Source: an uncultured Alphaproteobacteria bacterium
Lineage (GTDB): Bacteria > Pseudomonadota > Alphaproteobacteria > Methylaequorales > Methylaequoraceae
Assembly: GCA_902579395.1 (NCBI GenBank)
Contig: CACHGK010000003.1
Coordinates: 62,001 to 126,000, forward strand
Direction of reading: 5' to 3'
DNA: 64,000 bases
Made by a program: the position numbers and the translations under genes. How positions within the stretch are numbered: the stretch's first letter is position 1; every line of letters begins with the position of its first letter. A model generated the notes under the pieces. It worked only from the letters and a program-made list of their open reading frames with translations, did no database searches and was not told where the DNA came from. Shown here piece after piece: positions 7,906-63,636 of the stretch.

Positions 7906-8847
7906 ATGATTAAAAAATTGTTTATTCATCGCTCTCTTCCAGAAATGTATCACATAGATGTAGGAGATAACAATAAAATTTATACAGAAGTAAGTGGAAA
8001 AAAAGATGGTATCCCAATTATTTTTGTTCACGGAGGTCCTGGAGGTCAATGCAGAAGTGAACACCATTCTCTTTTTGATCCTGAAATTTATAAATCCATA
8101 ATTTTCGATCAAAGAGGTTGCGGGAAAAGCACTCCATATAGATCTTTAAATGGAAATAATACTGAAAATTTAGTTAAAGATATTGAGAAAATTAGAGAAT
8201 TCTTCAAAATTAAAAAATTTATAATAGTTGGTGGATCTTGGGGGGCAACTTTGGCAATAAAATATGCAATAAAGCACCCTGAAAACCTTATAGGCGTTCT
8301 ATTAAGATCTGTTTTTTTGGGTACAATTGAAGAGATTAATTGGGCATTTATTGACGCACCAAAAATTTTTGCTCCAAATCTTTACGAAAAATTTAAACAC
8401 TATTCTAACAAAAAGGATATAATAGATTCGTACTACAAAGAAATTGTTGAAAAGAACTCAAAAATACATTCTTGGATATGGCATGATTATGAAAGGATGT
8501 TATCACAATTAAATCCAAAAAATTATTTTTTTGAAAAAGAGGAAATAATACTTGAAAGGGATGGTGTTCCCAACTCCCCTTTTATGGAATTATACTACAC
8601 AAAAAATAAATTTTTTATGGAAAAAAACGAAATACTTAAAAAAATTAAAAATATCTCAAACCTACCATCATACATTGTTCAAGGAAGATATGATTTAATT
8701 TGTCCGCCTATTAATGCATTTAACCTTCATGAAAGGTGGCCCTCATCAGAGTTAAAGTTTGTCAATACTGCTGGTCACTCATCATCAGATGAAGGTATAA
8801 TAGATAATTTACTGATTGGTTTAGAAAAGTTAAGTCAACATGTCTAA
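7906..8847 (+). CDS. pip: Proline iminopeptidase (alpha/beta hydrolase)
   Basis: Cytoplasmic exopeptidase that frees N-terminal proline from peptides. The oxyanion-hole motif HGGPGG is at residues 42-47, DQRGCGKS at 68-75 and the nucleophile elbow GGSWG at 109-113 (Ser111). The acid is in GRYDLICP near 262 and the histidine in TAGHSS near 293. All are specific to the S33 proline iminopeptidase family, and 313 residues is normal. Its 3' end overlaps queG by 18 bases in convergent orientation. Confidence 0.93.
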   Translation: MIKKLFIHRSLPEMYHIDVGDNNKIYTEVSGKKDGIPIIFVHGGPGGQCRSEHHSLFDPEIYKSIIFDQRGCGKSTPYRSLNGNNTENLVKDIEKIREFFKIKKFIIVGGSWGATLAIKYAIKHPENLIGVLLRSVFLGTIEEINWAFIDAPKIFAPNLYEKFKHYSNKKDIIDSYYKEIVEKNSKIHSWIWHDYERMLSQLNPKNYFFEKEEIILERDGVPNSPFMELYYTKNKFFMEKNEILKKIKNISNLPSYIVQGRYDLICPPINAFNLHERWPSSELKFVNTAGHSSSDEGIIDNLLIGLEKLSQHV

Positions 8848-9936
8848 CTCATAAAGTACATATTTATTTTTCTCATTTTTTAATTTAGTCCTTAGTAATC
8901 TTATTTCTTTGTCATTGAGGAGTTGGGACAGGGACCATATACAAGAACCTCTAATTATAGGGTTGCAATTATTTAAATGATAATAGATTGCTTTAATTAA
9001 ATTTTTATCTTTACTATTTCCTGATGCAATTATCACGTTTCGTAAAAATCTGATCCAACCAATTCTTCTAATAGGTGAATTTAAAAAATAACTTTTAAAT
9101 TTTGTTTCATTAAAGTTTAGAAAAAATAATAAATCTCTATTAAAATTATCATTAATAAATTTTTTTTCATTAGTTTCTTTAGAAAATTTATTCCATGGGC
9201 ACACAGATAGACAATCATCACAACCATAAACTTTATTTCCCATTTTTTTTCTTAAACTTTTTGGAATTGGACCTCTATATTCTATGGTTAAATAAGATAT
9301 ACACTTCCTTGCATCAATTATATTATCTTCCAATATTGCATCCGTGGGACAAATATCAATGCATTTGGTGCAAGTCCCACAATTATCTATTAAATTGTCC
9401 TCTTCTTTAATTTTTATAGGTAAAAAAATTTCAGCTAAAAACAACCAAGATCCAAATTCTTTAGAGACAATGTTTGTATGTTTACCTTGCCAGCCAATTT
9501 TTGCTTTCTGAGCAAAATATTTTTCCATTACTGGAGACGTGTCGACAAACACTTTTGAGGAGATATTGAACTCAGAGATTAACCAATCTTGAATGTTTAT
9601 CAACTTTTCTTTTATGATATCGTGGTAATCATAATTTTGAGCATAAACACTTATGTTTGCAGCGCTTTTTTCTGCATTAAATCTTAATGGATTTGTTCCT
9701 GGAGAATAATTCAGACCAACAACAATCACAGTTTCAACTTTATCCCATATTTTTTTTGGATTAACTTTTTTTTCAAAATGTCTTTCCAACCACTTCATTT
9801 CGCCATGGTAGTTTTTATTTAAAAAATTTTGATAATTTTTTTGAGTTTCTTTATCTACTTTTGAAGTTGCAAACCCAACAATATCAAAACCTTCAGTTAA
9901 TATTTTTTTTTTTAATTTTTTTTTAAGTTCTTCCAT
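8830..9936 (-). CDS. queG: Epoxyqueuosine reductase QueG
   Basis: Last step of queuosine synthesis: a cobalamin- and iron-sulfur-dependent enzyme that reduces epoxyqueuosine to queuosine in tRNA. Two [4Fe-4S] ferredoxin-like motifs are visible: CGTCTKCIDICPTDAI (about 186-201) and CDDCLSVCPWNKF. The N-terminal part carries the WLERHFEKKVNPKKIWDKV and VDTSPVMEKYFAQKAKIGW segments of the B12-binding domain. At 368 residues it includes the C-terminal HEAT-like tail. It is divergent from queC with a 33-base gap. Confidence 0.95.
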   Translation of the reverse strand: MEELKKKLKKKILTEGFDIVGFATSKVDKETQKNYQNFLNKNYHGEMKWLERHFEKKVNPKKIWDKVETVIVVGLNYSPGTNPLRFNAEKSAANISVYAQNYDYHDIIKEKLINIQDWLISEFNISSKVFVDTSPVMEKYFAQKAKIGWQGKHTNIVSKEFGSWLFLAEIFLPIKIKEEDNLIDNCGTCTKCIDICPTDAILEDNIIDARKCISYLTIEYRGPIPKSLRKKMGNKVYGCDDCLSVCPWNKFSKETNEKKFINDNFNRDLLFFLNFNETKFKSYFLNSPIRRIGWIRFLRNVIIASGNSKDKNLIKAIYYHLNNCNPIIRGSCIWSLSQLLNDKEIRLLRTKLKNEKNKYVLYELDMLT

Positions 9937-44011: not shown

Positions 44012-44857
44012 TTATATAGCTGTAAAAACTTTAGTGGGTTCTGTATTTTCATTTATGATTTTATCAAACATATTAGGATCTAGTTTTGGATCCTTTTCTT
44101 TTGGAAATGCCAAAACATTTTGAGTACATATCTGATTAAAATAATTTACAGTATTTCTTAAAAAATTATTTGGATTAAATAGACGTGATTTGACCCAGTA
44201 GGGATTGTAATGGTTTTTTAAAAGAAATTTATTTAATTTGTTTGGAAATTTATCATGATTTTCAATCCAAATAATTGGATTGAATTTTTTTAAAAAACTC
44301 ATTCCACCTTTTAGGACTTCTAGTTCCATAGATTCAACATCGATCTTTAAAAAATCACATCTATCTAAATTTAAAAATTCGTCTAATTTTAAAACTTGTA
44401 CAATTTGTTTTTTCTTTTTCTTATTTATTTTAACTTCTTTATTATTTTTTTTTTTTAGACTAATTCCACCAAAATTTCCTTGTTCTTCATAATTAAAGTT
44501 CTCAAATTTAATTTTCTGATTTTTAATTCCCAAACCATTTCTAAATATTTTAATATTTTTAAGGTTATTCATATTCACATTATTTTCTAGTAATTTAAAG
44601 ACAGATTCTTGTGGTTCAAAACAATAAACTTTTCCACTTAATCCAACTCTTCTAGCAAAAGGTATGGTAAAAGCACCAATATTCGATCCAATATCAAAAA
44701 CAACATCACTAGGCTTGATAAAATTAAGCATAACATTTAATTCTATATCAGAATATTCTCCATATTCCTTTAAACTCTTACCAATAAATATATCTGAATT
44801 AAAATATTCAAAATATCCATATTTTGTCATTGTCCTTTTAATATAATTTTCAATCAT
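44012..44857 (-). CDS. FkbM-family methyltransferase
   Basis: 281 residues from the ATG at 44857; an in-frame ATG at 44911 would add 18 residues and overlap the upstream gene by 62 bases, so I prefer the shorter form. SAM motif VVFDIGSNIGAFTIPFAR, then YCFEPQESVFKLLENNVNMN and DFLKIDVESMELEVLKGG, are FkbM hallmarks. Family members O-methylate sugars in lipopolysaccharide, glycolipids and flagellar glycans. It starts 8 bases inside the preceding gene. Confidence 0.87.
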   Translation of the reverse strand: MIENYIKRTMTKYGYFEYFNSDIFIGKSLKEYGEYSDIELNVMLNFIKPSDVVFDIGSNIGAFTIPFARRVGLSGKVYCFEPQESVFKLLENNVNMNNLKNIKIFRNGLGIKNQKIKFENFNYEEQGNFGGISLKKKNNKEVKINKKKKKQIVQVLKLDEFLNLDRCDFLKIDVESMELEVLKGGMSFLKKFNPIIWIENHDKFPNKLNKFLLKNHYNPYWVKSRLFNPNNFLRNTVNYFNQICTQNVLAFPKEKDPKLDPNMFDKIINENTEPTKVFTAI

Positions 44858-45776
44858 GGATCTTTGTTTTAAAAATCTTTTCAATAACTTTTGGTGAAGG
44901 AAAATGTCCATGCTTGGAAGTTAGTTCATAATTTGGTTCCATATAAATTTGATCAATTTGATTTGGTATGTCTTTAAATTTATTGATATATTTTCTTTTA
45001 ACAAAGTATGCATTTGCACCCGTATGGGCATTACAGCAAACTAATTTATAATCAAATTTTTTGAATAACTTTTCTAAACTCGTTAGTGATGCACCAAAAT
45101 AATCATCTCCAGTCCATTTATGATTTTCATCATAATCAATTATAAACTCTATTGGTGGAAAAAATTTTGCATTATATTCTACAATAAAAACTTTAGGAAA
45201 AATATTATTATTAAGAAATTCTTCTAAAAAATAATAATCATTACCATCTAGATCTAATGAAATTAAATCTAATTTATCAATACACAAATTATTCATTGAT
45301 TCTTTTGTAATTTCAATAATATTTTTTAAGTTAATCCATTTTTTATTGTAAAAAAATTTTTCTGTATTCATGTGTTTAAAACAAAGATCTTGGCAGCCCA
45401 CCCAAAAACCCTTCCATCCTAATGTGGATAAAATTAATGTATTGTTTTCTAAGCCATTGCCAACACCAAATTCAGCATAATTTCCATTTTTGATTTTTAA
45501 TCGTCTTATTATTTCAAGTGTAATACCATCTTCATCAGTTTGTGAAAAACATTTTCTTCCGAAATAATTAAGTGGGTTTTTAAAATGTTTTTTTCTTGAT
45601 AACCTTGAATTTTTTATAAGAAGATCCTTAACTAATACAAGCAATTGGCTATTAAGATTTTGAATTTCAAGATTACTGTAATTTAGACTTTTTATTTCAT
45701 TTAAAGCTAAAAATGCATCATTGTTTGTAAATATTTTATTTTCCATCTGATAATTTAAGAGCAATTTACATGCCAC
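44850..45776 (-). CDS. FkbM-like/Rossmann putative methyltransferase
   Basis: 308 residues. YAEFGVGNGLENNTLILSTLGWKGFW (about 100-125) has the place and shape of a SAM-binding loop, and LISLDLDGNDYYFLEEF (about 175-191) matches the FkbM-family acidic strand. The N-terminal 80 residues are helical and unassigned. It is probably a divergent methyltransferase; activity is unproven. It lies 8 bases after the TPR-glycosyltransferase stop and overlaps the next methyltransferase. Confidence 0.6.
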   Translation of the reverse strand: MACKLLLNYQMENKIFTNNDAFLALNEIKSLNYSNLEIQNLNSQLLVLVKDLLIKNSRLSRKKHFKNPLNYFGRKCFSQTDEDGITLEIIRRLKIKNGNYAEFGVGNGLENNTLILSTLGWKGFWVGCQDLCFKHMNTEKFFYNKKWINLKNIIEITKESMNNLCIDKLDLISLDLDGNDYYFLEEFLNNNIFPKVFIVEYNAKFFPPIEFIIDYDENHKWTGDDYFGASLTSLEKLFKKFDYKLVCCNAHTGANAYFVKRKYINKFKDIPNQIDQIYMEPNYELTSKHGHFPSPKVIEKIFKTKIHD

Positions 45777-45784
45777 TACAAATG

Positions 45785-47152
45785 TCAGAGATCAGCGAGT
45801 TTTTCTTTGATAATTTTTCTGATTTCTGAAAGTGGATAATGCCAATTATTTAATTTTTTTTGTCTTAAAAGTTTCACACTAGGATAAATTTTTTGTGACC
45901 CGCGTAATCCCCATCTAGAATCGGGAATTCTTGATAAAAGTAAATAAGTGTTTTTTCGCATTGAACCTGAAAGATGTACTAATGATGTGCATGTTGAGAT
46001 TATCATATCCATTTTGTTAACAAAAAAAGCAGTATCCATGAAAGTATTGATATATTTACTACAGTCATGATAATTATCATTTTCATAAACAAATTCAATA
46101 TTTGCTGATCCATTAAGTTGTTGTAATGAAAAGAAATTTACGTTTTTTATATTTAAAAATTTTTCAATTAATGAGGGATTTAAAGATCGAAATATCTCTC
46201 TTGGCTGCGATGGTCTCCCAGACCAAGCGATCCCAATTTTTAATTTATCATTGTTGAGGAGATTATGAAATTTTGAAGAAAGTTTATTATTGACTTTTTC
46301 AAATTTATTTTCAGATAATTGAATTGATAAAGGTGGCGGGGTGCAGTTATTTTGATTATCTTCTAGTAGATACGGTAGACTCATTTGATAGGTTATAAAG
46401 TCAGTACAGTTTATCAAATTCGATGATAATTTTTCTGTAATAATTATGTTCTTGAGATCCTTTGAATTACTAAAAAGATCATAAAGTTTTTCATTTACAA
46501 TAAAAATAACTTTATGACCTAGTGCGTTAACTTTCTTTAAGTACCTGGCGTACATAATTTGATCGCCATAACCCTGTTCGCTAAAAACAATTATAGTCTT
46601 TTTTGAATTAAGATTTTTTATATTAATTTTGAGTTCTGGTATTTTTTTTAATCTTTCATAAAACTTATTATTGGAATATTTCCTAAGCCATTGGAGTTTT
46701 TCTCTATTTTCATATAAACGATCACCCGATTTATGATTTCCAGTTAATTTTTCTATGATTGAAAGATAAAATTTCGCTAATTTTGAATCTTTATTCGAAG
46801 AAATATGTTGTTTGAGAAGTTTTTTTGCTTTTTTAAATTTTCCAACTTCAGAATAATACCAAGCCATTCCACAGTTAGCTTCAATCGAATCTGAATTTAT
46901 TTGTAATGCTGTTTTAAAACACATGTTTGACATATCAAAATTTTTATTCATCAGATATGCCGAGCCTAGGAGTTGCCAAATATTATAGTCAGACGGCTTA
47001 ATTAATACGCAGTCATTTAATATTTCTAATGCATAGCTTTTGTTTCCTGTAACATATAGTTGTTGTTTTGCTAATTCAATATTAGAATTTACTTTAAAAA
47101 TTAAATCATTATCCAAGTTACTGCTCCTTAGACTATAATCTTCAAGTTTCAT
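45785..47152 (-). CDS. TPR-repeat glycosyltransferase (GT9-like C-terminal domain)
   Basis: 455 residues. The first ~140 residues are TPR repeats (IWQLLGSAYLMNKNFDMSNMCFKTALQI, IEANCGMAWYYSEVGKFKKAKKLL). The C-terminal part is a GT-B/heptosyltransferase-like domain: VFSEQGYGDQIMYARYL (cf. EQGLGDxIQFARYL), KIGIAWSGRPSQPREIFRSL, IISTCTSLVHLSGSM, and PDSRWGLRGSQKIYPSVKLLRQ. This two-part family is common beside flagellar genes in alphaproteobacteria and is thought to glycosylate proteins. First gene of a four-gene minus-strand run, divergent from fliB. Confidence 0.82.
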   Translation of the reverse strand: MKLEDYSLRSSNLDNDLIFKVNSNIELAKQQLYVTGNKSYALEILNDCVLIKPSDYNIWQLLGSAYLMNKNFDMSNMCFKTALQINSDSIEANCGMAWYYSEVGKFKKAKKLLKQHISSNKDSKLAKFYLSIIEKLTGNHKSGDRLYENREKLQWLRKYSNNKFYERLKKIPELKINIKNLNSKKTIIVFSEQGYGDQIMYARYLKKVNALGHKVIFIVNEKLYDLFSNSKDLKNIIITEKLSSNLINCTDFITYQMSLPYLLEDNQNNCTPPPLSIQLSENKFEKVNNKLSSKFHNLLNNDKLKIGIAWSGRPSQPREIFRSLNPSLIEKFLNIKNVNFFSLQQLNGSANIEFVYENDNYHDCSKYINTFMDTAFFVNKMDMIISTCTSLVHLSGSMRKNTYLLLSRIPDSRWGLRGSQKIYPSVKLLRQKKLNNWHYPLSEIRKIIKEKLADL

Positions 47153-47192: not shown

Positions 47193-47208
47193 TGGCATAT
47201 TATTTGCT
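47193..47208 (+). promoter_or_regulatory. Sigma-54 (-24/-12) promoter of fliB
   Basis: TGGCATATTATTTGCT, with GG at 47194-47195 and GC at 47206-47207 (exact GG-N10-GC), matches the consensus TGGCACG-N4-TTGC[AT] except for the weak positions. Counting C47207 as -12, transcription begins at 47219, the A of the fliB ATG, so the mRNA should be leaderless. No Shine-Dalgarno lies between the element and the ATG. Confidence 0.8.
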
Positions 47209-47218
47209 GTTTTTTTAT

Positions 47219-48433
47219 ATGCCTGAAATAACACCAAAATATTACAATGAATTTAGCTGTCTAGGTGAAAAGTGCGAAGAAACATGCTGTCAAGGCTGGG
47301 TAATTAGTGTTGATAAAAATACCTTTGAAAAATACGAATCATCAAAAGACGTAATGTTTAAAAAAAATTCCTACTTCAACAAAATGCCTGAACCAACAGA
47401 TAGCTTTCATGGAATTATTAAGATGAAAAAGGATGGTTTTTGTCCATTTCTTAACGGAAAAAACTTATGTAGCATTCAAAAAAGCTATGGTGAAAATTAT
47501 TTGTCTTCAACATGTAAAACATTTCCCAGACGAAATATTAAATATTCTAATAATCAAAACATTAGAACTTTATCAATGGCTTGTCCTGAAGCGGCAAGAT
47601 TATGTTTAACCACTGATGATGCAATGAAAATTTTTGAAGACAATTATTATGAAAAGAAAAATTATATTGAGATTGTACCCAAACAATCTAGGGACTCTCA
47701 TAATATTGTAGGAGAAAAACTATTTAATAAAACTTTTTCTTTACTAAAGGATAATAATATTCCTCTCACCAATATACTTTTTGTAACAGAACAATTTTTA
47801 AATGAACAAGCAAATCTTGCTATACATCAAGATAAATTTGAAAATGTAACAAAACATTTAGTCGATGAACTAATACCAATCAATATTGTTAACTTTGATA
47901 ATTCATTTTTTAAACTTGGTTTTCTAGAAGATATATTTTGTTTTGTAAATAATTTAACCTACGACAATAAATCTAATGAAAAATTTAAGTTTATATTAAA
48001 AAATGTTTACGATGATTTGGTCACTAAATTTAAAAACTTTGATGATGCTACAGTGAATTTTAATAGATCACTAAAAATATTTAATAAATTTGAAGAGAAA
48101 AATCAGATTTATAGAAAACTATTTCAAAACGAAATACTTAGTCATGCTCAAATTTTCACTAATACAACTCCATTTTGCAGGAATAGATTTTATATAACCA
48201 TTTTTAGTGCAGCGATTTCAAAATTAATTTCAATTTCCAGAATCTCAAATAATGATGGCATGATAAATTTAGAAGATTTAATCGAACCTATTCAGAAAGT
48301 TGCTAAACATCATGGACTTTTTCTTGAATTTTATAAAAATATGGAATACAAATTTAATGATAAAATTCTTAATTCTTTAAATAAAATTGATAGAAATAAT
48401 GTATTCAATTCAGTTTTATTTCTTTTTCACTAG
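47219..48433 (+). CDS. fliB: Flagellin lysine-N-methylase FliB
   Basis: FliB N-methylates lysines of flagellin. The N-terminal cysteine cluster CLGEKCEETCCQGW (about residues 11-24) and the second cluster CPFLNGKNLCSIQ ... TCKTFPR (about 80-110) are the family signature, probably a metal or iron-sulfur site. 404 residues, normal length. I start at ATG 47219 (MPEITPKYYNEFSC) because the in-frame upstream start lies within the sigma-54 promoter. The 3' end overlaps the O-antigen ligase gene by 29 bases. Flagellin genes are not in the window, but the hook-filament genes lie 6 kb away. Confidence 0.9.
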   Translation: MPEITPKYYNEFSCLGEKCEETCCQGWVISVDKNTFEKYESSKDVMFKKNSYFNKMPEPTDSFHGIIKMKKDGFCPFLNGKNLCSIQKSYGENYLSSTCKTFPRRNIKYSNNQNIRTLSMACPEAARLCLTTDDAMKIFEDNYYEKKNYIEIVPKQSRDSHNIVGEKLFNKTFSLLKDNNIPLTNILFVTEQFLNEQANLAIHQDKFENVTKHLVDELIPINIVNFDNSFFKLGFLEDIFCFVNNLTYDNKSNEKFKFILKNVYDDLVTKFKNFDDATVNFNRSLKIFNKFEEKNQIYRKLFQNEILSHAQIFTNTTPFCRNRFYITIFSAAISKLISISRISNNDGMINLEDLIEPIQKVAKHHGLFLEFYKNMEYKFNDKILNSLNKIDRNNVFNSVLFLFH

Positions 48434-50612: not shown

Positions 50613-51161
50613 ATGGTCTTACTTCAATCACCCATATGTAAGTTTGGTGAACAAATGCCGGAGTTTAAATTATTAAACGTAGACGGCATAGAATATTCGT
50701 CAAAAGAACTTTGTGGAAAAAATGGCACCTTGATAATGTTCATATGTAACCATTGCCCATATGTAAAAGCAATAATTGATGATCTTATAAAAGTTGTCAA
50801 AGAATTGAAAGAATTTGATATTTCATCTGTTGCAATTATGCCAAACGATTTTAATAAATATCCTGAAGATAATTTTGAGAATATGAAAGAAATTTCAAGA
50901 ATAAAAATGTTTTCTTTTCCTTATTTATTAGATTCGGATCAGTTAATTGCAAAAAAATTTGGTGCTGTCTGCACTCCTGATTTTTTTGGTTATAATGCTA
51001 GAAATCAACTTCAGTATAGGGGAAGATTTGGACAAATTAAAAATCTAGTACTAACTAATCATAAAAAAGATCTTTTGGAAGCTATGAAGGAAATTTCAAA
51101 AAAGCAAAAAGGTCCAAAAATTCAATACCCATCTGCAGGATGTAGTATTAAATGGAAATGA
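50613..51161 (+). CDS. Thioredoxin-fold/AhpC-TSA family protein
   Basis: 182 residues. The redox motif CNHCPYVKAIID (CxxC variant with Pro, about 46-57) and MPNDFNKYPEDNFENMKEI, then a cis-Pro-like loop VCTPDFFGY, mark the thioredoxin family close to peroxiredoxins found in many marine bacteria. There is no signal peptide, so it is cytoplasmic. Its electron partner is unknown. The 3' end overlaps the convergent dehalogenase-like gene by 14 bases. Confidence 0.85.
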   Translation: MVLLQSPICKFGEQMPEFKLLNVDGIEYSSKELCGKNGTLIMFICNHCPYVKAIIDDLIKVVKELKEFDISSVAIMPNDFNKYPEDNFENMKEISRIKMFSFPYLLDSDQLIAKKFGAVCTPDFFGYNARNQLQYRGRFGQIKNLVLTNHKKDLLEAMKEISKKQKGPKIQYPSAGCSIKWK

Positions 51162-51822
51162 TCTGATTTGTAATATCCAAAAGATTTTCTCCAATCAAGT
51201 CAGGTTTTAAATATTTTTCATTTAATTTTTTTTCATATCTTTTGACATAAGCTGTTCTCATACCAATATTTTTTGCCCCATTAACGTCCCACCCATGTGC
51301 AGCTACCATGAGACATTCAGAGGGCTTATTTTTAAGTTCTTCGCAAACATGAATGTAGGGGGCTGGAAAAGGCTTCCATTTTTTAACCTCATCTACAGAA
51401 AAACATAATTCAACAAAATCACTTATTTTATTTTTGATTAAAAGTTGTCTGGTGACATTCCTCGATCCATTTGTAAGAGTAACTAATCTAAATTTTTTAC
51501 TCAAAATCCTAAATGACTCAGTCACCTCTGGATGACTTCTTAGATTCTTAAAAGAGTTATTTAAAAAAGATAAGGTATGAATGTCATTCTTTAAATTTTT
51601 TTGAAGAAATAATCTTTCGAGTTCAATTATTCCTAATTCTGAAAACTTCATAAAATTATTATTTATACTAGATGAAAAACCTTCTTTAAGTACATTTGAG
51701 AACCAAAATTTAACATCATTCTTTGATAAACCATTTAACTCGAATTGATTTTCTAAAAATTTTAAAGAAAAAATAGTTTCGTTTACATCAAATACAATAC
51801 TTTTTAAATTTTTAAATGGCAT
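51148..51822 (-). CDS. HAD hydrolase, haloacid dehalogenase type II-like
   Basis: 224 residues. HAD motif I VFDVNETIFSL (nucleophile Asp), motif II VTLTNGS, motif III KPFPAPY and motif IV VAAHGWDVNGAKNIGM are in the pattern of L-2-haloacid dehalogenases (the HGWDxxGA form). It may act on 2-haloacids, though many family members are plain phosphatases. The start codon lies within the divergent sigma-54 promoter of the sulfotransferase gene, so occupancy there could affect both. Confidence 0.82.
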   Translation of the reverse strand: MPFKNLKSIVFDVNETIFSLKFLENQFELNGLSKNDVKFWFSNVLKEGFSSSINNNFMKFSELGIIELERLFLQKNLKNDIHTLSFLNNSFKNLRSHPEVTESFRILSKKFRLVTLTNGSRNVTRQLLIKNKISDFVELCFSVDEVKKWKPFPAPYIHVCEELKNKPSECLMVAAHGWDVNGAKNIGMRTAYVKRYEKKLNEKYLKPDLIGENLLDITNQIISI

Positions 51823-51832
51823 AAAAGTTGCT
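51817..51832 (+). promoter_or_regulatory. Sigma-54 (-24/-12) promoter of the TPR-sulfotransferase gene
   Basis: TGGCATAAAAGTTGCT has GG at 51818-51819 and GC at 51830-51831, exact GG-N10-GC spacing and the same TGGCAT ... TTGCT form as the fliB site. With C51831 as -12, transcription starts at 51843, the A of the ATG. The TGGCAT overlaps the start codon of the divergent HAD gene. No Shine-Dalgarno lies between element and ATG. Confidence 0.78.
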
Positions 51833-51842
51833 GATTTTTGTT

Positions 51843-53633
51843 ATGAGTTATCGGATAGATCAAAATTTACAAAAAAAAAAAGAAATATACAAAGAGTTAT
51901 TAGAAAAAAAAATCACTTTCTGTAATGAAAAATTAATCAAGGATCCTCAGGATATTGAATCATACTTCCAACTTTCTGATATAGCTATTAATTCATCTCA
52001 GTTTGAATTGTCAGATACTTTTTTGAAGGTTGCGGATACTATAAAACCTTTCTCTACTAAATTATTAATCAGAAAAGTAAATAATTTTATAAAAATTGGT
52101 AATTTTGAAAAAGCACATAGCTTAATAAAAAGATTTTATTATGAGCAAAATTTATATGATGATTTAAAAGATAACCCAAAAATATTGTCCTATTTTTCAA
52201 ATATTTTATTAACAGTATTTGCCGATTATGAAGGTAGTTTAAAATTAAGTTTAGATTCGATTAAGAGGTTTCCAAAAATTGAAGAAGGTTATAAAAGCTT
52301 GGCAGAAAACTATATTTATTTTTATGGAGATTTATTGCAAGGTAGAAGAATCCTTATTGAGTCAATCAATAAATTCCACTCAACACTTCTCGCTGAATCA
52401 TATATAAAAAGTTTTTTTCTTAATAACCCAAAGGCTGGTCTTTATGAATTAATTAAACTGAAAAAAGCAGGATTATTTTCTAAAAATGCATTCAAAATTT
52501 TATATTTTAATATTATGTCTTTTATTGGAAATTTGCAGTCGCAATTAGATTCATTGATGGAGATTAAGGATTATATTGATGAGGATCAATTTGATTATGA
52601 AAGACTTAGTTTAAATCCGAGTTATATTAATGAAATTTCATTAGACATTTTGCAACACAAAATTAAATTTGTTGAAGATGAACTTAGTTTTGAATTGGAT
52701 CATAATAATAAAAAAACATTGTCAAATAAGCTGTATTATTTGAAAATAATTATAGCCAGAAAATTTTTTAAGAAAAAAAAAATTAATGATGAATTTAAAT
52801 TTCTTGAAGAGGCTAAAGAAATATATTTTAAAAAAAACTTTCATTGTTCGACAAATCATACCCCTCCTATAAAGATAAAAAGTATGCCGATGACTTTATT
52901 TAATGATCAAAATGAATATGTTGAGTTAGTTAAGAAAAATAAATTAATATCTTATGATTATTCACCAATTTTTATTATTGGACTTCCAAGATCAGGATCA
53001 ACTTTGATTGAAAGTATAATTTCTGGATCAAAAGACATTATTAGTTGCGACGAATCTCAAATTATTTTGAAATTTAAGAATTATATTAAATTTATTAATA
53101 AGAAAAAAAGTATTATGGAAATGTATATTAATAATTTTCCTGAAATTTCTAATTTTAAAAGATTTACAGATAAGTCATTAAATAACTTTGCTAATATTGA
53201 TCTTATAATTCAGTTATTTCCTAAAGCAAAATTTATTAATTGTGTCAGAAACCCCAAAGAAAATGCAATAGCTATTTTTAAAAATAATTTTGATACTCTT
53301 CCATGGTCACTAAATATTAAATCTATTCTTAAATATATGGACGAGTATTTCAAATTAATAAATCATTATAAAAAAAAATATAAAGAAAAAATCTATACTT
53401 TAGATCATAAAAATTTAGTTTGTGACAAACAAAATACATCCAAGAAGCTTTTTGAATTTTTAGGTATTAAATGGAAACCTGAATTTTTAGATATTCACAA
53501 AAAAAAATTTACAACAGGAACATCAAGCAAACGACAGATAAAAAAGAAAATTTCAAAATCATTTTTGAATAAATATACTGATTATTATAAAAATTTAGAT
53601 CAATTTAAAAAATATTATAGTTGGCTTAATTAA
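51843..53633 (+). CDS. TPR-repeat sulfotransferase
   Basis: 596 residues from ATG 51843; an upstream TTG start would run through the sigma-54 promoter. The N-terminal half is helical repeats (TPR-like, e.g. DIESYFQLSDIAINSSQFELSD and NFEKAHSLIKRFY). The C-terminal domain has the PAPS-binding P-loop GLPRSGSTLIESII (about 380-393), and the 3'-phosphate-binding RNPKENAIAIFK region and KLFEFLGIKWKPEF. It should transfer sulfate from PAPS. The promoter links it to flagellar genes; a flagellin or hook glycan target is inferred. Confidence 0.85.
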   Translation: MSYRIDQNLQKKKEIYKELLEKKITFCNEKLIKDPQDIESYFQLSDIAINSSQFELSDTFLKVADTIKPFSTKLLIRKVNNFIKIGNFEKAHSLIKRFYYEQNLYDDLKDNPKILSYFSNILLTVFADYEGSLKLSLDSIKRFPKIEEGYKSLAENYIYFYGDLLQGRRILIESINKFHSTLLAESYIKSFFLNNPKAGLYELIKLKKAGLFSKNAFKILYFNIMSFIGNLQSQLDSLMEIKDYIDEDQFDYERLSLNPSYINEISLDILQHKIKFVEDELSFELDHNNKKTLSNKLYYLKIIIARKFFKKKKINDEFKFLEEAKEIYFKKNFHCSTNHTPPIKIKSMPMTLFNDQNEYVELVKKNKLISYDYSPIFIIGLPRSGSTLIESIISGSKDIISCDESQIILKFKNYIKFINKKKSIMEMYINNFPEISNFKRFTDKSLNNFANIDLIIQLFPKAKFINCVRNPKENAIAIFKNNFDTLPWSLNIKSILKYMDEYFKLINHYKKKYKEKIYTLDHKNLVCDKQNTSKKLFEFLGIKWKPEFLDIHKKKFTTGTSSKRQIKKKISKSFLNKYTDYYKNLDQFKKYYSWLN

Positions 53634-53676: not shown

Positions 53677-54174
53677 ATGATGTATCTGAATTTTATGAGG
53701 CATGCAAAATCTGATTTGAATGATGATGTTGATGACTTTTCTAGACCAATTACAACTGAGGGTGTTGAAACTACGAAAAAAATTTCTAATTTTCTTAAAA
53801 AAAATTCTATTTATTTTGATCTTATTTTCTGTTCTCCAGCAGTACGAACAAGACAAACTCTTGATTGTCTAATTGAAAATTTAAAGACTGAACAGTCAAA
53901 AATAATTAATGATTATAATTTGTACGAGGGTAATGAAGATAATTTTTTACTTAGAATAAGTAACATAAGAAGGTATAAAAATGTTTTAGTAATAACACAT
54001 GAACCTCAAATACTTTATTTCATAAACTATTTCTTAGAGCACACAGAAAATAATAATTTTGATTTTGTAAATTCTAGTCTTATAACACTTGAGTTTAATA
54101 TAAGTGAGTGGAATGAGCTCTCAAACCTCAATGTAAAACTAAAAAAATTTCTCGATCCAAATAAACTTATTTAG
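53677..54174 (+). CDS. sixA: SixA-like phosphohistidine phosphatase
   Basis: 165-residue histidine-phosphatase-fold protein. The catalytic RHG-type motif is RHAKSD near residues 8-13, with SRPITTEG and a C-terminal VITHEPQI. SixA removes phosphate from histidine on phosphotransfer proteins. Alphaproteobacterial relatives are often annotated only as histidine phosphatases, so the true substrate is open. Followed by a 121-base gap that holds the flgG promoter. Confidence 0.85.
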   Translation: MMYLNFMRHAKSDLNDDVDDFSRPITTEGVETTKKISNFLKKNSIYFDLIFCSPAVRTRQTLDCLIENLKTEQSKIINDYNLYEGNEDNFLLRISNIRRYKNVLVITHEPQILYFINYFLEHTENNNFDFVNSSLITLEFNISEWNELSNLNVKLKKFLDPNKLI

Positions 54175-54240: not shown

Positions 54241-54256
54241 TGGCATGAGGTTTGCA
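54241..54256 (+). promoter_or_regulatory. Sigma-54 (-24/-12) promoter of the flgG-flgK operon
   Basis: TGGCATGAGGTTTGCA: GG at 54242-54243 and GC at 54254-54255, exact spacing, one mismatch to TGGCACG-N4-TTGCA. The predicted start near 54267 gives a 29-base leader with AGAGGA as ribosome site before the flgG ATG at 54296. An in-frame ATG at 54245 lies inside the element and so cannot be the start. Confidence 0.82.
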
Positions 54257-54295: not shown

Positions 54296-55084
54296 ATGGC
54301 AATTAATGCAATGCATGTAGCAAAAACTGGACTTAACGCACAACAGGTAAGAATGCAAGTAATTTCAAATAATCTTGCAAATGTGAATACAAACGGTTTT
54401 AAAAGAGACAGAGCTAATTTTGAGTCTCTGCTCTATCAAATTATAAGAAGTAGTGGGGCACAGACATCAGTGGATACTGAGTTAACCTCAGGATTTTCAG
54501 TTGGAACTGGTGTTAATATAGTTAACTCGAATAAACTTCATTCTCAAGGAAGTATTGTGTCAACTGATAATTCTCTAGATTTAGCTATAGATGGTGGTGG
54601 ATTTTTTCAAGTTTTGCTTCCTGATGGTCAGGTTGTTTATACAAGAAATGGTGCTTTTTCAAGAAATAATGAAGGTATCCTTACGACAAATAGTGGTTTT
54701 ATAATTCAGCCTGAAATCGCGATACCTGCGGAAGCTACAAAGATCAATGTTTCAGCTGATGGAATTGTTTCAGTTCAAATTCCTGAACAGGTTGAAGCAC
54801 AGGAAGTTGGACAGCTGCAGTTGGCAGATTTTCAAAATAGAACTGGTTTGCAGCCGATTGGAGAGAATTTTTATGTTGAAACTACTTCAAGTGGTCCTCC
54901 AGTAATTGAGAATCCATTTGCTGCTGGTTTTGGAAAAATAATTCAAGGAGCATTAGAAAGCTCTAACGTAAATGTTGTTCAAGAACTTGTTGATATGATT
55001 GAAACTCAAAGAGCCTATGAAGTTAATTCAAAAGCAATAACATCAGTTGATGAGATGCTTAGATTTGTAAGTAATAATTTATAG
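54296..55084 (+). CDS. flgG: Flagellar distal rod protein FlgG
   Basis: Distal rod of the flagellum. From ATG 54296 (after AGAGGA, spacing suitable) the protein has 262 residues: N-terminal axial motif LNAQQVRMQVISNNLANVNTN, a flgG-specific centre (NNEGILTTNSGFIIQPEI) and C-terminal VVQELVDMIETQRAYEVNSKAI. Upstream flgF is absent. First gene of the flgG-flgH-flgI-flgJ-flgK-flgL block, whose sigma-54 promoter is at 54241. Confidence 0.96.
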   Translation: MAINAMHVAKTGLNAQQVRMQVISNNLANVNTNGFKRDRANFESLLYQIIRSSGAQTSVDTELTSGFSVGTGVNIVNSNKLHSQGSIVSTDNSLDLAIDGGGFFQVLLPDGQVVYTRNGAFSRNNEGILTTNSGFIIQPEIAIPAEATKINVSADGIVSVQIPEQVEAQEVGQLQLADFQNRTGLQPIGENFYVETTSSGPPVIENPFAAGFGKIIQGALESSNVNVVQELVDMIETQRAYEVNSKAITSVDEMLRFVSNNL

Positions 55085-62328: not shown

Positions 62329-62344
62329 AGGCACGAAAATTGCT
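62329..62344 (+). promoter_or_regulatory. Sigma-54 (-24/-12) promoter of flgL
   Basis: AGGCACGAAAATTGCT, with GG at 62330-62331 and GC at 62342-62343 (exact GG-N10-GC), matches GGCACG-N4-TTGC[AT] perfectly after the first base. It lies between the flgK stop (62319) and the flgL ATG. With C62343 as -12, the start is at 62355, one base before the ATG: leaderless. Some flgL could also come from read-through from flgG. Confidence 0.8.
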
Positions 62345-62355
62345 AGGTATACTGA

Positions 62356-63636
62356 ATGAAAATTAGTAATAAATTATTTAATGACCAACAATTAAGTCAA
62401 TTTTCCAAAAATATGGAAAAAATTCAGAAGATTCAGGATAAGATTTCTTCTGGTAAAAATATAATATTTGCTTCAGATGATCCGGTTGGAGCTGTCCAAC
62501 TTTCTGGTATGAAGGATGTGCTAGGAAAAGTTGATAGATTTATAGAAAATGCAAATATTGCTCGTGATAGGTTGCATTTAATGGACGCAACTATGGAGGC
62601 GGTAAATAATGTTTTTATAAGAGCTAATGAATTAGCAATCCAAGCTTCAAATGATATCTACGGCGTATCAGATAGAGAGGCGATAGCGATAGAATTTGAT
62701 GAAATGAAAAGTGAATTAATGACACTTGCCAATACTCAAGATTCAACGGGAACTTACATATTTGCTGGTTTTAAGACTAAAACAAGTCCATTTAAAATGA
62801 ATTCAGATGGAGCAGTAAAATATCACGGTGATCGCGGCGTATTAAACCTCCAGTTGACTGAATCTAGATTAGTAGAAACTACAATTGATGGTGGTACTGT
62901 TTTCCAAGATATCGTGACATCAGAGGGTGTTTCGACTGATTTATTTGGTGCTATTGATAACATTAGTAGATCAATTAGGACTGCAAGTGGTGGTGTTGAA
63001 TCAGCAAAAGCCGAAGGCATGGCAAAAATGACCTTAACTAATGCAGACCCTGGTACATATGCATTCACGATCAAATCTGGAACGAAATCACATGATTTTT
63101 CTCTAAATATAACTGGAAATGATTTGAGTGACGTAGCTACGGCAGTTAATTCAGCAAATTTAGACATAACAGCCACACTTGAAGACTCAAATAAAACACT
63201 TAAACTTGTTAATAGTTTTGGTCATGATATTGAAGTCAGTGATTTACAAATTACAGGTATTGACAAAGCACAAATACAACCAACATCATTCTTTACATTT
63301 CAACCGGTTGATGCAGCAGATAACAAACTAGGTAATCAACAATCAATATTTGACAAAGACCAAACAATAGCAAGTCGTCTTGATGAAATTGTTACAATTC
63401 AGAGTCATGTCTCTAATCAAAGAGCAAAAGTTGGTGCTCGTATTAATAGTGCTGAAAGAATAGGTGACGTGTTACAAGAAAGAAAAATTTTAATAAGTAA
63501 AGATATCAGCGACATTCAAGATGCTGATCTTGCTACACTTGTTACAAGTCTTCAAGCGCAACTTACAAGTCAAGAAGCCTCTCAAAAATCTTTTATAAAT
63601 ATAACAAAGTTGAATTTATTTGATTTTTTAAGTTAA
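62356..63636 (+). CDS. flgL: Hook-filament junction protein FlgL (HAP3), extended
   Basis: Second junction protein, next to the filament. The flagellin-like N-terminus (LSQFSKNMEKIQKIQDKISS, GKNIIFASDDPVGAVQL) and C-terminus (DADLATLVTSLQAQLTSQEA) identify it; the N-terminus fixes the start at 62356. At 426 residues it is about 100 longer than usual. The extra middle contains a flagellin-IN-like motif (about 254-295, DLSDVATAVNSANLDITATL, then LKLVNSFGHDIEV), as found also in FlgK. The gene abuts a convergent hypothetical gene. Confidence 0.94.
   Translation: MKISNKLFNDQQLSQFSKNMEKIQKIQDKISSGKNIIFASDDPVGAVQLSGMKDVLGKVDRFIENANIARDRLHLMDATMEAVNNVFIRANELAIQASNDIYGVSDREAIAIEFDEMKSELMTLANTQDSTGTYIFAGFKTKTSPFKMNSDGAVKYHGDRGVLNLQLTESRLVETTIDGGTVFQDIVTSEGVSTDLFGAIDNISRSIRTASGGVESAKAEGMAKMTLTNADPGTYAFTIKSGTKSHDFSLNITGNDLSDVATAVNSANLDITATLEDSNKTLKLVNSFGHDIEVSDLQITGIDKAQIQPTSFFTFQPVDAADNKLGNQQSIFDKDQTIASRLDEIVTIQSHVSNQRAKVGARINSAERIGDVLQERKILISKDISDIQDADLATLVTSLQAQLTSQEASQKSFINITKLNLFDFLS

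Follow-up and report, generated by a model that had tools for sequence, protein, structure and literature searches.

The TPR-sulfotransferase P0001, encoded in the window (the whole stretch of 64,000 nucleotides that was analysed), is probably a dispensable decoration enzyme of the flagellum that belongs to a sigma-54 regulon and sulfates a flagellar protein or glycan. Its promoter, active site and history in related genomes suggest a flagellar decoration gene with a chemistry new for bacterial flagella and a putative acceptor. The host genome (G000) is 1.3 Mb long and 80% complete, and its relatives include the uncultured marine Alphaproteobacteria AG-915-O07, AG-337-B08 and AG-337-E20.

Domain architecture and active site of P0001

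The gene extends from 51843 to 53633 on the forward strand, starts with ATG and encodes 596 aa; an alternative longer frame with a TTG start at 51828 would have its start codon inside the sigma-54 promoter. The translation matches the sulfotransferase profiles PF13469 (E = 1.1e-27) and PF00685 (E = 3.8e-10) over residues 375-569, the first with 98.1 bits against a curated cut-off of 27 and the second likewise over its own cut-off. The whole domain comprises residues 373-596 (52959..53630, forward strand) and contains the P-loop GLPRSGSTLIESII at residues 380-393 (52980-53021, forward strand), which confirms the P-loop sulfotransferase domain recognised in an earlier note on this DNA. The fusion to TPR repeats described in the same note is borne out by the fold and not by the sequence: no Pfam TPR model matches P0001, even at E = 1, but its relatives have strong matches to these models (best 3e-17), and an AlphaFold2 model based on an alignment of 42 relatives (pLDDT 88.6, pTM 0.88) predicts paired helices across residues 2-366 and, after them, an alpha/beta sulfotransferase domain. 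The best solved matches in Foldseek are the tyrosylprotein sulfotransferases 1 and 2 (TPST1 and TPST2, E = 8e-7), which are the closest solved structures by both sequence and fold; SPINDLY and O-GlcNAc transferase, which match the solenoid, rank after them. The N-terminal alpha-helical region (residues 2-366, 51846..52940, forward strand) is described here as a TPR-type solenoid on the basis of the model, the Foldseek matches and the TPR models in relatives. In the predicted structure, this solenoid and the C-terminal transferase meet the description of an architecture of the FlmG type, known from Caulobacter.

When P0001 is aligned with TPST1/2 and with its family, R383 (in the P-loop), E404, K444 and S562 fall at the positions of the catalytic R, E, K and S. 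We take them to match R78, E99, K158 and S285 of TPST2, the positions of K and S being assigned by reading of the spacing. R383 and E404 are invariant in the 42 rows of the alignment, as is K444, and P0001 also keeps S562, Q565 and R469, the arginine of the 3'-phosphate. The host genome encodes an APS kinase domain within a 625-aa frame of the CysN/CysC type, which makes a supply of PAPS possible. Since the active-site residues are kept and the donor can be made, the sulfotransferase of P0001 looks active. The APS kinase is present in most relatives, whether or not they carry the gene, so that it only permits sulfotransferase activity, and the supply of PAPS was rejected as a correlate of the gene.

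The sigma-54 promoter and the flagellar neighbourhood

The sulfotransferase gene is preceded by the -24/-12 promoter TGGCATAAAAGTTGCT (51817..51832, forward strand), an exact match to the sigma-54 consensus located 10 nt before the ATG at 51843. The CAT within this promoter is also the start codon of a divergent gene for a HAD-family hydrolase (51148..51822, reverse strand; HAD_2, E = 2.3e-14), a neighbour that is conserved beside the sulfotransferase gene or its scar. The promoter had been said to have the same form as that of fliB, and this is correct: the site has no mismatch, and its distance of exactly 10 nt from the ATG is found in both TPR-sulfotransferase genes and both FliB genes of the genome. 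The pattern TGGCAN6TTGCT has 14 exact sites in the host genome, as opposed to none for the reversed control pattern, and the slightly wider consensus TGGCAYN5TTGCW has no exact match in SAR11 and Prochlorococcus loci that total 2.4 Mb when both strands are counted. Sigma-54 itself is encoded in the genome (rpoN; PF04552, 208.5 bits). The flagellar-linked genes behind the exact sites are both FliB genes and those of FliS, FlgF and a FliO-like protein. The other genes with such a site encode the TPR-sulfotransferase, PII, a sigma-54 activator, a TPR protein, a transglycosylase and two products without an assigned family; some two of the 14 sites lie within genes and seem to be chance matches. 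The promoter form is real throughout the genome and marks mostly flagellar and FliB genes. The predicted membership of P0001 in a flagellar sigma-54 regulon, as originally claimed, is strongly supported by its site, the genome-wide motif and the presence of rpoN. The two proteins behind exact sites that match no Pfam family, one of 325 aa (L091:496-1473, reverse strand) and one of 298 aa (44850-45746 in the window, reverse strand; exact site TGGCATGTAAATTGCT at 45760..45775, reverse strand), may be additional enzymes of flagellar modification.

Because the ATG stands 10 nt after the site, the messages of both TPR-sulfotransferases and both FliB genes are probably leaderless. The leader of flgG, estimated from the position of its site, is about 40 nt long. 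The ATG is found 10-13 nt after the -12 element in many genes of the regulon, flagellar enzymes above all, and their transcripts are likewise probably leaderless; the division between these short spacings and the flgG leader is not strict, since flgL and flgF have 11-12 nt.

Close variants of the sigma-54 site stand before the flgG operon and flgL. That of the flgG-flgH-flgI-rod-binding-flgK operon, TGGCATGAGGTTTGCA (54241..54256, forward strand; flgG ATG at 54296), is conserved in the flgG loci of relatives, and the sigma-54-like site AGGCACGAAAATTGCT (62329..62344, forward strand) precedes flgL (62356-63636, assigned by TIGR02550). FlgK (PF22638; 57229-62319) is unusually long, with 1696 aa, and has 1689-1794 aa in relatives with complete loci. 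On the other side of the sulfotransferase gene, the site TGGCATATTATTTGCT (47193..47208, forward strand) belongs to the gene of the flagellin lysine-N-methylase FliB (47219..48433, forward strand), identified by the equivalog model NF038110 with 189.5 bits against a cut-off of 85. The next gene downstream of the sulfotransferase encodes a SixA-like histidine phosphatase (53677..54174, forward strand; His_Phos_1, E = 4.1e-09; TIGR00249, 63.7 bits, little below the cut-off of 74.5) and is possibly part of the same transcript. It begins 43 nt past the end of the sulfotransferase gene, and the 0.6 kb previously given for this distance was wrong. The 2.4 kb given for the flgG operon holds when counted from the start of the gene (about 2.45 kb); from its end, the distance is about 0.66 kb. 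A further neighbour, a TPR protein (45785..47152, reverse strand; TPR_17, E = 1.7e-06) with 28-30% identity to larger proteins of 545-573 aa at the same place in congeners, had been labelled TPR-GT9, which finds no support in Pfam.

Relatives of the gene and its loss within the genus

A complete copy of the gene is absent from all 12 congeners (60-93% complete). Seven of them have a scar of it in the interval between the HAD gene and sixA or flgG, and flgI is present in eight, including all seven with scars. In G001, the scar still has its sigma-54 site, followed by the ATG, 57 N-terminal codons and apparent last codons, and its alignment to P0001 reaches 51 points, a score that none of 2000 shuffles attained. 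In the six other scars, a degenerate site such as TTGCATAATATCTGCT precedes what is left of the gene, its ATG and a few codons; most of them retain the CAT that serves as HAD start codon. The scar loci (L071:9930-10260 and L072-L077) illustrate the decay of a sigma-54 promoter after gene loss, mostly sparing the overlapping HAD start. These remnants indicate that an ancestor within the genus had the gene in this position and that the gene later disappeared while the flagellum persisted. The loss of the gene from lineages that kept the flagellum fits a decoration, not a structural part.

The host genome contains a second TPR-sulfotransferase (G000:C2:152047-153786), which is 36% identical to P0001 and whose site, AGGCATAAATTTTGCT, has one mismatch and the same spacing. 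Its divergent neighbour, a TPR-protein gene, has an exact sigma-54 site, and about 10 kb separate the paralog from the second FliB. The surrounding island (L008:8351-13935 and L009:1038-15703) is variable, is flanked by DsbB-like and FAD-type genes and contains, apart from the paralog and the second FliB, a 322-aa non-TPR sulfotransferase, an arylsulfotransferase (PF14269), a sulfatase and a pyruvyl transferase. The same flanks enclose other genes in G020 and G027, including their TPR-sulfotransferases.

Only five of about 120 TPR-sulfotransferases have an upstream sigma-54 site with at most one mismatch, namely P0001, its paralog and the genes of G021, G020 and G027; the background of such sites is 2e-5 per position, or about 1 in 800 per 60-nt upstream stretch. 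These five genes come from four incomplete genomes of three genera in one bacterial family, and some are close relatives. All four genomes carry flagellar rod or hook genes. The site of the G021 gene has its mismatch in the -12 element and is 41 nt from the ATG. The other TPR-sulfotransferases of the same family have no sigma-54 site, and none of six of their neighbourhoods contains any of the flagellar genes tested. More than 40 TPR-sulfotransferases from SAR11, a group described as being without flagella (PMC11898729), also have no such site. Many SAR11 genomes encode a TPR-sulfotransferase of 450 aa at a fixed housekeeping place (e.g. L134 and L138, around 8400-9780), between lipoamide dehydrogenase-like and priA-like genes (names judged from sequence). 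A general link between TPR-sulfotransferases and flagella was rejected, as the flagellar genes tested were found in none of 20 distant alphaproteobacterial neighbourhoods.

The phylogenies group P0001, its paralog and the G021 gene in a firm clade (99/98 and 100/99 in two trees). A clade of all five sigma-54-linked genes, including those of G020 and G027, was obtained in one tree (92/79) and was not recovered in a thinned tree (46% of bootstrap trees); a single origin of the group was therefore rejected as settled. Since the placement of the G020 and G027 genes depends on sampling, the promoter was gained once or twice, and these two genes may have gained theirs independently. G021, which belongs to another genus, has the same block FliB - Wzy_C - UPF0047 - AhpC - HAD - ST - sixA on a contig that also encodes flagellins, FlgK, FlgL and FliD. 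The search of related genomes proposed in the earlier note thus places the gene beside flagellar genes in the host genome and in G021, through this block, but not in G020 and G027, though both of these genomes have flagellar genes. A co-occurrence with capsule or LPS genes instead of flagellar ones, which would have spoken against the proposed function, is not what is seen, since the gene accompanies FliB and flagellar genes in two genera and the sigma-54 sites extend to three.

Possible acceptors and comparison with known systems

If P0001 decorates the flagellum, its TPR-type solenoid would dock a substrate of flagellar export, a flagellin being the likeliest one, as the TPR half of FlmG does, and its TPST-like domain would move the sulfate of PAPS to a protein hydroxyl (tyrosine, serine or threonine) or to a glycan before export. 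Sulfation would then stand beside FliB methylation as an optional and easily lost surface modification, flagellum assembly being independent of P0001. We give about even chances to the full proposition that a bacterial flagellum is sulfated, on flagellin residues or glycans, by a TPST-like TPR enzyme that is under flagellar sigma-54 control, comes from a family known otherwise in non-motile SAR11 and acts in the cytoplasm before export; an acceptor that is either a flagellin or its glycan, both taken jointly, seems somewhat easier to defend. Apart from a protein hydroxyl, the acceptor may be a nonulosonic-acid glycan, since NeuB homologues are encoded elsewhere in the host genome; in congeners, genes for NeuB, a cytidylyltransferase, a family-2 glycosyltransferase and a TPR protein lie on the same side of flgG. 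The tyrosine and lysine counts of flagellins from gene-positive and gene-negative genomes, which are few and mixed, indicate no acceptor. Adhesion, recognition by the host and sensitivity to phages are influenced by flagellin methylation and glycosylation. With sulfate, the filament would gain a fixed negative charge, and the role of the modification could lie in this surface charge and in the evasion of phages or grazers.

Several other scenarios may explain the data. The enzyme could sulfate a glycan of the cell surface, such as the LPS O-chain, and be co-regulated with motility in a surface programme of swimming cells. An O-antigen ligase-like gene (PF04932) 2 kb from the sulfotransferase gene, the FkbM, PhyH and methyltransferase genes also nearby and the pyruvyl transferase and sulfatase genes in the island of the paralog are in line with this scenario. 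Nevertheless, sigma-54 sites stand before FliB and flagellar genes but not before the ligase gene, and the ligase is kept in congeners without the sulfotransferase, so that we regard a surface glycan as an unlikely target, albeit the one that fares best after the flagellum. It is less plausible still that the sigma-54 link reflects nitrogen control or some other programme and that the sulfate goes to an unrelated protein or a small molecule, as it would with the uncharacterised enzymes of SAR11. The presence of the nitrogen regulator PII in the regulon means that sigma-54 alone is no proof of a flagellar role, and close relatives of the enzyme occur in the non-flagellated SAR11, in housekeeping surroundings. 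Yet flagellar and FliB genes make up the majority of the genes identified behind the sites, and these SAR11 relatives are without a sigma-54 site. A non-catalytic sulfotransferase domain, which would make P0001 a TPR chaperone for flagellar export, is very improbable: a serine that contacts PAPS is replaced by alanine at residue 477 and the conserved R567 by lysine, but the P-loop and the residues R383, E404, K444, R469, S562 and Q565 are kept, Ala or Gly recurs at position 477 in SAR11 relatives, and a role in export is at odds with the loss of the gene in congeners whose flagellar genes remain. Finally, an accidental neighbourhood, in which the HAD-ST-sixA block came to adjoin flgG in a single genus, could account for the G021 block lying about 15 kb from flgK and not beside flgG, but it is hardly credible, as the promoter evidence is independent of position and the paralog and the G020 and G027 genes have the site elsewhere.

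The decoration of the flagellum, which we favor over these scenarios, has its closest parallel in FlmG of Caulobacter, a protein of about 600 aa with an N-terminal TPR part, a C-terminal transferase and, like P0001, an alphaproteobacterial flagellar setting (PMC7591256). The TPR half of FlmG binds the Caulobacter flagellins, as shown by two-hybrid analysis (PMC7591256); a similar docking by P0001 would be expected by analogy. The chemistry differs, since FlmG transfers pseudaminic acid through a GT-B domain and P0001 has a PAPS sulfotransferase. TPST1 and TPST2 match P0001 at the R, E, K and S positions of the active site but, unlike it, are Golgi enzymes that lack a TPR domain, and an identity of only about 20% means that their acceptor cannot be carried over. 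The bacterial tyrosine sulfotransferase RaxST modifies the small secreted peptide RaxX (PMC8872720), a substrate unlike the one proposed here; if the sulfate is on protein, the P0001 reaction would join that on RaxX among the rare examples of protein sulfation in bacteria.

The earlier statement that sulfation of flagellin is not an established modification holds for bacteria, within the literature covered, and not for archaea. No report of bacterial flagellum sulfation and no paper joining flagellin modification with a sulfotransferase was found in a literature that covered few subscription journals. In archaea, the flagellins of Halobacterium were described as sulfated glycoproteins in 1985, according to a later account (Wieland 1985, cited in PMC11980604), and the sulfotransferases VNG1056C and VNG1057C of Halobacterium salinarum sulfate the glycan of the swimming filament, their deletion having little or no effect on motility (PMC11980604). 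That system involves an archaeal N-glycosylation pathway and an archaellum, and neither a TPR-type enzyme nor sigma-54 control is described there (PMC11980604). The enterobacterial islands of FliB and flagellin modification resemble the P0001 locus in being made up of variable genes beside flagellar genes that are dispensable for swimming; the work on them lists methyl, acetyl, formyl, lipoyl and amino groups and does not mention sulfate (PMC4875605). Lastly, the uncharacterised TPR-sulfotransferases of SAR11 and other alphaproteobacteria have the same domain order as P0001, the SAR11 forms being its nearest relatives outside the bacterial family (about 35-42% identity in the sulfotransferase domain), but those checked differ from P0001 in having neither a sigma-54 site nor flagellar neighbours. 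If the proposed function is correct, P0001 would offer a first functional lead into these proteins, which SAR11 and other marine bacteria commonly encode.
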